A stretch of 52,184 nucleotides of DNA from a candidate division WOR-3 bacterium (lineage in GTDB: Bacteria; Hydrothermota; Hydrothermia; Hydrothermales; JAJRUZ01). This document shows, in pieces, positions 50,319-52,184 of the stretch. Every line of letters begins with the position of its first letter. The stretch's first letter is position 1. A program made the position numbers and the translations under genes. The notes below the pieces were generated by a model. That model saw only the letters and a list, made by a program, of their open reading frames with translations. It ran no database searches and was not told the origin of the DNA. The DNA is taken from NCBI GenBank assembly GCA_039804025.1, contig JBDRZP010000016.1, forward strand, positions 9,331 through 61,514, in the 5' to 3' direction.

Positions 50319-51575
50319 TTATAAAACTTTTACCCCTTTTATCTCTTCCCATCTTGTTGTATACCTTCTTGATCTATAAATTTGTTTCATGTCCCATTTT
50401 TTTGTTATAAATTCTCCAGCAAGATAAATGGTTTCTCTTCCAAATATTTTATTTATTTTATCTATAGTAAAAATTATCTTTTTCTTTTTTTCAGTAAAAG
50501 TGAATTTGTCAGAAAATATGTTTTTTATTTTTTTCTCATCCTTTATAAGTCCGCAAAAGTAAATACCTGCTTTTTTATATTTGATTCCTTCTTTAAAAAT
50601 TATTTTTAAAACTTTTTCAGCAAATTTAACAAGATCCGGTGTATAAGCTGTTGGAGATGGTAAATTTATTCCCATATCTTTAAAATAAAAATTTTTTTCA
50701 AAGGGGGAGCTCATTATAAAGATATGAAGTTTAGAGGCAAGAAGGTTTTCGCTTCTTAATCTTTCTGCTGCTACTGATATAAGGTATGTAATTGCTTCCT
50801 TTAGTTCTTCAAATTTTTCTATTTTTTCTCCAAAGGTTCTTGACGAACTTATACCTTTTCTTTCTAAATTTTCTTCTATTTCAAAACATTTTATTCCTTT
50901 AATTTCTTTAAGTATTTTTAATCCTCTGAGAGTGAGGTTTTTTCTTACCCATTCCTCATTCAAATTTTTAAATTGATAGGCATTAAAAATTCCTTTTTCT
51001 CTTAAAAATTTTGCTGATACAGGTCCTATTCCCCATATATCTTCCACATCTATTTTCTTTAATAATTCATCTTTTTCAGGATGATTTATTATATTAAAAA
51101 TTTTTTTATTTTCATTTTTTTTGGCAAATTTTAGAGCAATTTTTGCAAGAACCTTTGTTTCACCTATTCCTATGGAAACAGGAATTTTTACCCATTTTTC
51201 AATTTTTTCTTTAATATTTTTTAAAAACTCTTCTTTATTTTCAATTCCTTCAAGGTCAATAAAGGCTTCATCAATAGAATAAACTTCTATTTTTTTTGCA
51301 AAACTTTTTATTATTCCCATTACCCTATTTGAAATTTCTTCATAAAGGGTGTAGTTTGATGAGAATAAAAAGATATTATTTTTTTCAATTATATTCTTAT
51401 ATTTAAAATAAGGAGCACCCATTGGAATACCCATTTCCTTAACTTCCTTTGACCTTGCTATTATGCAGCCATCGTTATTTGAAAGAACAATACATGGAAC
51501 TTTTTTAAGATCAGGTCTAAAGATTCTTTCACAGGAAACATAAAAATTATCACAATCAATAACACCTATAGCCAT
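50319..51575 (-). CDS. umuC: UmuC-like Y-family DNA polymerase
   Basis: The 418-residue protein is a translesion polymerase of the UmuC (Pol V catalytic subunit) type. The palm motifs are DCDNFYVSCERIF (metal Asp at 7) and VYSIDEAFIDLEG (Asp102-Glu103). IVLSNNDGCIIARSKEVK and the GIGPVSAKFLREKG helix-hairpin-helix follow. The C-terminal tail with IYRSRRYTTRW matches the DUF4113 end of UmuC rather than DinB. It is cotranscribed with, and starts one base after, an atypical UmuD-like gene, which suggests a working Pol V-type complex. Confidence 0.94.
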   Translation of the reverse strand: MAIGVIDCDNFYVSCERIFRPDLKKVPCIVLSNNDGCIIARSKEVKEMGIPMGAPYFKYKNIIEKNNIFLFSSNYTLYEEISNRVMGIIKSFAKKIEVYSIDEAFIDLEGIENKEEFLKNIKEKIEKWVKIPVSIGIGETKVLAKIALKFAKKNENKKIFNIINHPEKDELLKKIDVEDIWGIGPVSAKFLREKGIFNAYQFKNLNEEWVRKNLTLRGLKILKEIKGIKCFEIEENLERKGISSSRTFGEKIEKFEELKEAITYLISVAAERLRSENLLASKLHIFIMSSPFEKNFYFKDMGINLPSPTAYTPDLVKFAEKVLKIIFKEGIKYKKAGIYFCGLIKDEKKIKNIFSDKFTFTEKKKKIIFTIDKINKIFGRETIYLAGEFITKKWDMKQIYRSRRYTTRWEEIKGVKVL

Positions 51576-51576
51576 T

Positions 51577-51939
51577 TTAAAGCTTCCTTATTAGAAAAGT
51601 TATAATACCAAAAACTTCAAACTCAATGTTTTCTTTTATTTCTTCCTTTATACTTTTTGAAATAAAAAATTTTTTACCTTTTTCTTTTATAATTCTTCCT
51701 ATTACAAAATCACCTTTAAATTCTGCCACAATTAATCTATTTTCAAATTTTTCAATTGATGCATCCACAACAATTATATCACCCTTTTTAATACCCTCCC
51801 TTTCAAAATCTTCTTCTACTCTCATAAAGAAAGTGGAAAAGGGATTTGAAACTATAAATTTATTTAAATCAAGAGGCTTTTCTTCATAATCCCTTGCAGG
51901 TGAAGGAAAACCAGTATAAATAACTTTTAGTTTTTCCAT
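51577..51939 (-). CDS. UmuD-like S24-family protein lacking the autocleavage residues
   Basis: The 120-residue protein aligns with the part of UmuD that remains after self-cleavage (UmuD'). It starts nine residues before the usual Cys-Gly cut, which here is Thr9-Gly10 in IYTGFPSPARDY, so the removable arm is essentially absent. The catalytic Ser of the GDSM motif is replaced (VEEDFEREG, Phe45) and the Lys of FTVKRL is Gly81 (DFVIGRI). The rest of the fold is kept, including KPLDLNKFIVSNPFSTFF and GDIIVVDASI. It may be a permanently active UmuD' form, partner to the adjacent umuC. It is divergent from an XRE regulator gene with two palindromic sites between them. Confidence 0.82.
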   Translation of the reverse strand: MEKLKVIYTGFPSPARDYEEKPLDLNKFIVSNPFSTFFMRVEEDFEREGIKKGDIIVVDASIEKFENRLIVAEFKGDFVIGRIIKEKGKKFFISKSIKEEIKENIEFEVFGIITFLIRKL

Positions 51940-51951
51940 ATTTTAATTTTA

Positions 51952-51964
51952 ATCCAAATTGGAT
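51952..51964. promoter_or_regulatory. Palindromic operator copy 1
   Basis: ATCCAAATTGGAT is a near-perfect 13-base palindrome (ATCCAA, one central base, TTGGAT) 12 bases upstream of the UmuD-like start. A second copy lies 29 bases away centre to centre, and the flanks are shared (TTAATCC and TTGGATAAAT). It is probably bound by the divergent XRE regulator. Confidence 0.72.
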
Positions 51965-51980
51965 AAATAAAATCAAATTA

Positions 51981-51993
51981 ATCCGAATTGGAT
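51981..51993. promoter_or_regulatory. Palindromic operator copy 2
   Basis: ATCCGAATTGGAT differs from copy 1 by one base and lies 31 bases upstream of the XRE ATG, about where a -35 element would be for the TATAAT at 52013-52018. Binding here could block transcription of the regulator, while copy 1 lies at the UmuD-like promoter. Confidence 0.72.
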
Positions 51994-52012
51994 AAATTTA
52001 AATTTTTTACTA

Positions 52013-52018
52013 TATAAT
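52013..52018 (+). promoter_or_regulatory. Probable -10 element of the XRE gene
   Basis: TATAAT ends 5 bases before the ATG at 52024, so the transcript would have almost no leader. No TTGACA-like -35 stands out; the TTGGAT half of operator copy 2 (51988-51993) is at a 19-base spacing. The assignment is tentative. Confidence 0.45.
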
Positions 52019-52023
52019 TAAGA

Positions 52024-52184
52024 ATGGATATTATTGGGAAAAAAATAAGGGAATTGAGGGAAAATAAAGGTTTGACGCAGAAGGAGTTTGCTTCTTTGCT
52101 TGGTTATAAGTTGCTAACGGTTTCAAGGTGGGAGAGGGGAGAGAGGAAGCCCTCTTTTTCTGATTTAAAGAAGCTTTCTGATAT
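52024..52184 (+). CDS. XRE-family helix-turn-helix regulator, C-terminus cut by window edge
   Basis: About 53 codons are visible. The sequence IGKKIRELRENKGLTQKEFA followed by SLLGYKLLTVSRWERGERKP is a standard HTH_3 (lambda Cro/CI-like) domain, with helix 2 at TQKEFASLLG and recognition helix near LLTVSRWERG. The rest of the protein is beyond the edge, so it is not known whether an S24 self-cleaving domain or a metallopeptidase partner site follows. It is divergent from the umuDC-like pair across 84 bases that hold two palindromic sites, the usual layout of a repressor controlling both its own gene and its neighbour. Confidence 0.85.
   Translation, partial: MDIIGKKIRELRENKGLTQKEFASLLGYKLLTVSRWERGERKPSFSDLKKLSD

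Follow-up and report, generated by a model that had tools for sequence, protein, structure and literature searches.

An umuC-linked UmuD′ made without cleavable arm or protease, and the probable shift of RecA-triggered cleavage to a divergent S24 repressor

Cleavage of UmuD is the textbook second lock on the mutagenic polymerase Pol V. In the genome of a candidate division WOR-3 bacterium (G000), a stretch of 52,184 nucleotides that we analysed as a whole (the window) encodes a UmuD-like protein from which this lock is gone, while RecA control is probably retained. The cleavable arm and the Ser-Lys dyad are absent from this protein, while the product of a divergently oriented XRE-S24 repressor gene keeps a cleavage bond (Ala79-Gly80) and both catalytic residues (Ser126 and Lys162). 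For this reason we consider it likely that RecA-triggered cleavage has moved from UmuD to the adjoining repressor, in a probably acquired Pol V module whose UmuD′ would be born active. The polymerase genes and the codons of interest are as follows.

50319..51575, minus strand: umuC gene, 418 amino acids, with the catalytic Asp/Asp/Glu, a RecA-NT-like motif and the C-terminal YTTRW tail kept (profile searches, alignment, the genome's own RecA N-terminus)
51577..51939, minus strand: umuD′ gene, 120 amino acids, armless from the start and without the Ser-Lys dyad (ORF list, phmmer, alignment, AlphaFold2/Foldseek)
51697..51699, minus strand: Gly81 codon, aligned with the catalytic Lys97 (alignment)
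51805..51807, minus strand: codon of Phe45, at or beside the place of the catalytic Ser60, with a one-residue deletion here (alignment)
51910..51915, minus strand: codons of Thr9-Gly10, at the place of the E. coli scissile bond Cys24-Gly25 (alignment)

The umuD′ frame reads on the minus strand from an ATG at 51939 to its end at 51577. Its product matched E. coli UmuD/UmuD′ at 2e-14 to 3e-13 (phmmer) and the Pfam S24 family at 2.8e-9, and its AlphaFold2 model (mean pLDDT 87) had the UmuD′ structures 1umu and 1ay9 as best Foldseek matches (TM 0.71-0.81). Both the GFPSPA arm and the S24/UmuD′ fold are present, in sequence and predicted structure, in agreement with the initial annotation, which had described the UmuD fold as kept. 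The NCBIfam models for UmuD (2.6e-25, 88.7 bits) and HumD (2.4e-20, 72.8 bits) were matched below their curated cut-offs of 110 and 120 bits, respectively. Assembly artefact was ruled out, as the protein and its neighbours recur, without a contig break, in G002, another species of the genus.

Only nine residues precede the cleavage-site Gly, so that the protein does start near the normal self-cleavage site, as the initial annotation had stated. It had also named an upstream extension carrying the arm as a finding that would speak against it; such a hidden arm is ruled out by in-frame stops directly 5′ of the ATG ('D*N*NMEK'). These stops also exclude an N-terminal fusion, and no HTH was found in the protein by Pfam profile search. 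The alignment places Thr9 at the site Cys and Gly81 at the catalytic Lys, both as had been read. The replacement of the catalytic Ser by Phe45 was borne out in part. The Ser is gone, but the region is one residue shorter than in E. coli (KASGDSMIDGGI versus RVEEDFEREGI), and the alignment is equally compatible with substitution of Ser60 by Phe45 plus deletion of a neighbour or with deletion of the Ser itself. No Ser is left of the GDSM motif, and no substitute was found between residues 36 and 60. On the sequence, RecA-stimulated self-cleavage of the 120-residue UmuD′ is excluded, as had been claimed, because the protein has neither an arm that could be cut off nor the Ser-Lys dyad. The protein can be classed from these data as UmuD′-like in fold and setting, outside both the autoproteolytic UmuDs and the curated HumD score.

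The gene lies 1 nt from umuC, confirming that umuC follows directly, and this pairing with an intact umuC is that of a Pol V subunit. The window pair has in common with E. coli UmuD/UmuD′ the S24 fold, the GFPSPA arm, the position right before umuC, and the RecA-NT motif and C-terminal tail of UmuC; it differs from E. coli UmuD in lacking the N-terminal arm with its Cys/Ala-Gly bond and the dyad. The RecA-NT motif of UmuC has been taken as ground for the need of the mutasome for RecA (PMC6511836, PMC11791011), and in models the UmuD′ arm enters UmuC near the active site (PMC11791011). Since the window UmuC keeps a RecA-NT-like motif, the mutasome should still need RecA. Final activation by RecA would be expected to proceed as in E. 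coli, given this motif and the retained UmuD′ arm.

On the other side of umuD′, an 84-bp gap separates it from the divergent repressor gene. The features of this region are listed below.

51952..51964, unstranded: operator-like palindrome ATCCAAATTGGAT (pattern search)
51981..51993, unstranded: operator-like palindrome ATCCGAATTGGAT, overlapping the candidate -35 box of the repressor (pattern search)
51989..52018, plus strand: candidate repressor promoter TGGATA-18-TATAAT (by consensus match alone; 3 such matches in the region against 1.2 expected)
52024..52184, plus strand: 5′ part (53 amino acids) of the divergent XRE-HTH + S24 repressor gene, where window and contig end (ORF list, profile searches)
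Contig C24 (L003:189-806) and G002 (L021:4642-5259): full repressor gene, 205 amino acids

The G000 assembly consists of 47 contigs, and the contig of the window (C16) stops inside the repressor gene. C16 was joined to C24 through an overlap that contains about ten differences; the locus is unbroken in G002. Window positions 51834-52184 and G000:C24:1-352 differ by about ten mismatches or indels, and the assembly may mix two strains.

The repressor consists of HTH_3 and Peptidase_S24 domains, and it matched phrog_4, a family of phage repressors, at 9.7e-39. The gap holds two near-identical palindromes, ATCC(A/G)AATTGGAT, and 0.01 such pairs were expected in the window. A search of the whole genome with the looser pattern ATCCNNATTGGAT returned the 84-bp gap (in both contig copies) and one site inside a coding gene. 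The palindromes were seen in no other promoter of the genome and not at recA. A regulon wider than the cassette was ruled out, as the sole further operator match sits inside a coding gene. The promoter call is weak evidence, and the second palindrome overlaps it; the repressor start codon lies 5 nt past the -10 box, and the transcript is possibly leaderless.

RecA is encoded in G000, where only two S24 proteins exceeded the Pfam cut-off: UmuD′ and the repressor. None of the genomes G000 to G004 reached the LexA cut-off (TIGR00498), and the only match of the lexA model in G000 and G002, below that cut-off, was the divergent repressor itself. The confinement of the palindromes to the promoter region of the cassette, the presence of RecA and the failure to find LexA support the conclusion that cleavage has shifted to the repressor.

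The mechanism that we propose runs as follows. The small subunit would be translated straight as UmuD′, with no arm and no protease, and UmuD′2C would assemble at once. The repressor would bind the two palindromes between both promoters and repress itself and umuD′C. Upon DNA damage, RecA filaments would cause its cleavage at Ala79-Gly80, both promoters would be released, and ready-made UmuD′2C would appear, to be finally activated by RecA through the RecA-NT motif of UmuC. We infer the DNA binding and cleavage of the repressor, the induction and the polymerase activity from this analysis; the trigger of the repressor could be something other than RecA. The initial annotation had concluded that control would be at transcription only. 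This stands insofar as UmuD′ self-cleavage is excluded, but is not supported for the system as a whole, which has an adjoining S24 repressor with intact site and dyad and a UmuC with a RecA-NT motif. Mutagenesis without RecA, which had been put forward as a test, is predicted to be probably negative, because RecA should have two points of action, the repressor and the mutasome.

HdiR and FddR, together with LexA, serve as models for RecA-filament-triggered self-cleavage of a repressor with release of its promoters (PMC8565304, PMC13148647). HdiR (Streptococcaceae) and FddR (Francisella) are S24 repressors of LexA-less bacteria with few targets, including translesion polymerases, and FddR is divergent to its targets and acts on a palindrome (PMC8565304, PMC13148647). 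The window repressor resembles them in type and in its LexA-less setting: it has an HTH and an S24 domain with Ala-Gly, Ser and Lys, and palindromes in its own divergent promoter region, its cleavage being predicted. HdiR and FddR control UmuC homologues or DinB, whereas the partner of the window repressor is a UmuD′ born processed. In Acinetobacter, whose genome lacks LexA, umuDC operons are under the control of the S24 protein UmuDAb (PMC8565304, PMC7273328). There, repressor and UmuD-like part form one protein; in the window they are encoded by two genes. Precedents therefore exist for each half (HumD, discussed below, and HdiR/FddR), which had been known only apart, and their combination is a new variation. 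In the literature searched, the coverage of which is incomplete and gives no proof of absence, we found no such repressor beside a doubly dead, umuC-linked UmuD′ on a chromosome. A chromosomal Pol V without the UmuD lock, beside a repressor that keeps the kindred protease, indicates that the lock can be transferred from one level of control to another. It also allows a test of what is gained from the UmuD arm, and from its slow cleavage, when the repressor is already cleaved.

Relatives with a dead UmuD, for which the initial annotation had proposed to look, were found. The G002 protein is 96% identical to that of the window, with the same losses and neighbours. A strict UmuC search (E below 1e-60) of 147 genomes of the phylum was positive in eleven. 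All seven of those outside the class of the window (including G143) have a UmuD with active-protease motifs, and the four within it (G000, G002, G007 and G014) all have a dead UmuD, a split that was noticed post hoc. The dead state of G007 and G014 is due to other substitutions (Gly for Ser, Arg for Lys). In a set of 80 UmuDs from elsewhere, spanning many phyla, Ser was kept in 79 and Lys in 77, and both were lost in one, from a Cyanobium MAG; as this set was picked by similarity to the dead forms, it is not biased to active ones by design. The Cyanobium UmuD (L115:2477-2875) has Ala for Ser and Arg for Lys, its arm and Ala-Gly bond being seemingly kept.

G007 belongs to another family of the class and has GC-rich DNA, and it shows the same layout of umuC, dead umuD′ and divergent XRE-S24 repressor. 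Its repressor (220 amino acids; Ala94-Gly95, Ser141, Lys177) is 29% identical to that of the G000 type over the full length (2e-32), and its palindrome pair (TACCC-N3-GGGTA or near it; 0.04 expected in the locus) differs from that of the window. This repetition of the layout, with a UmuD dead by other substitutions and with different palindromes, supports a shift of cleavage to the repressor, as does the fact that a simple phmmer screen detected no divergent XRE-S24 gene upstream of umuD at 157 other loci. At four of these 157, umuD is preceded by a LexA-like gene in the same orientation. The divergent XRE gene at L089 was rejected as a repressor, as it lacks an S24 motif and resembles one member of a toxin-antitoxin pair. 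In G014, dead umuD′ and umuC are preceded by a NUDIX-like gene, with no adjoining S24 repressor, which counts against the shift. A LexA-like winged-HTH protein of the same genome (L260:1441-2121) has seemingly lost the usual Ser motif of its S24 domain.

A wider reading is that these loci represent a recurring mobile Pol V module, retained by two or more lineages of a single class with differing dead residues and operators, in which the RecA-sensing protease has moved whole to a divergent S24 repressor, the checkpoint form UmuD2C is never formed, and repressor cleavage and RecA binding are the sole controls on mutagenesis. We regard the chances for and against it as evenly balanced. In the phylogeny of UmuC, G000/G002 are separated from G007/G014 and the dead state needs three changes. 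Independent origins were not upheld, as a single clade of the four was not rejected (p-AU 0.33), and there may have been one origin or two.

As to its origin, the cassette measures about 2.3 kb, and its three genes lie in G002 exactly between rsmG and an M50 peptidase gene, which adjoin without it in G001, of the same genus, and in G003, of the same family. Because the site is empty in these relatives, the cassette was probably acquired horizontally as a self-contained three-gene unit, the alternative being clean losses in G001 and G003. The presence of the whole cassette on one G002 contig, together with the empty site, also favours the shift of cleavage within an acquired module.

We considered the possibility that the gene is of the HumD type, that is, a phage or plasmid gene whose UmuD′ serves a mobile element under an outside repressor. 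HumD of P1, which the initial annotation had not mentioned, has been characterised as a shortened UmuD in the activated state from the outset (PMC7092418), and complementation of UmuD′ by it is noted in the P1 record. Its family (KO2 gp23, N15 gp26) is likewise made as UmuD′ and shares with the window protein the loss of the G-x-S-M motif and a one-residue deletion, although one residue precedes GFPSPA in HumD and nine do so here. The near-armless start and the deletion in the Ser region, the NCBIfam HumD match, the phrog_4 match of the repressor and the insertion-like cassette all agree with such an origin. Yet the HumD score is under the curated cut-off, and nearly all armless phage forms compared have lost GDSM with a one-residue deletion but mostly kept the Lys, which is gone here. 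The phage genes lack umuC and stand under host LexA, a LexA site being found upstream in P1 and KO2; the window gene, by contrast, is chromosomal, with flanks common to G001 and G003, adjoins umuC and has its own predicted repressor. In both G000 and G002, the cassette is bordered by ordinary chromosomal genes, and no phage or plasmid genes accompany it. No close relative of the protein or of the repressor was found in genomic or viral contig collections. A HumD-type gene is accordingly an improbable explanation.

Decay, in which the polymerase would be out of use and a UmuD that had lost its protease would be drifting, is very improbable. The loss of the two catalytic residues and of the one at the cleavage site, and the length of the UmuC branch that leads to G000/G002 (1.3 changes per column), are what decay would produce. 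However, the frames are open and dN/dS between G000 and G002 indicates purifying selection in all three genes (umuD′ 0.30, based on 11 changes; umuC 0.15; repressor 0.20). Decay is also at odds with the retention of the GFPSPA arm and of the UmuC catalytic residues, RecA-NT motif and tail, with the like loss beside an intact repressor in G007, and with the occurrence of the entire module where relatives have an empty site. The constraint on the three genes and the conserved features of UmuC argue, in turn, for the shift of cleavage to the repressor. Members of the S24 fold dimerise through the S24 domain, and UmuD/UmuD′ heterodimers are known in E. coli; that UmuD′ is held by pairing with the S24 domain of the repressor, which has the same fold, or is controlled by another protease, is nonetheless the least probable explanation, as the protein has no removable arm and nothing specific points to pairing.

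Variant forms were also noted in other loci. Two deltaproteobacterial UmuDs (L089:2426-2851 and L109) keep the Ser, but their catalytic Lys is replaced by Arg (K97R in L089). The UmuDs of L086:2477-2860 and L105:2489-2863 have very short arms (13-15 residues) with intact dyad and Ala-Gly bond, and may stand midway from UmuD to the form that is born processed. Fusions of a LexA-type winged HTH to a UmuD-like S24 domain with intact dyad occur in a different family of the phylum (TVEAGFPSPAEEE; L026:4421-6678 in G058, L027:5564-7392 in G052, L035 and L036). A Y-family polymerase gene directly follows the fusion in G058 and G052, an arrangement like that of UmuDAb, distant from Acinetobacter.
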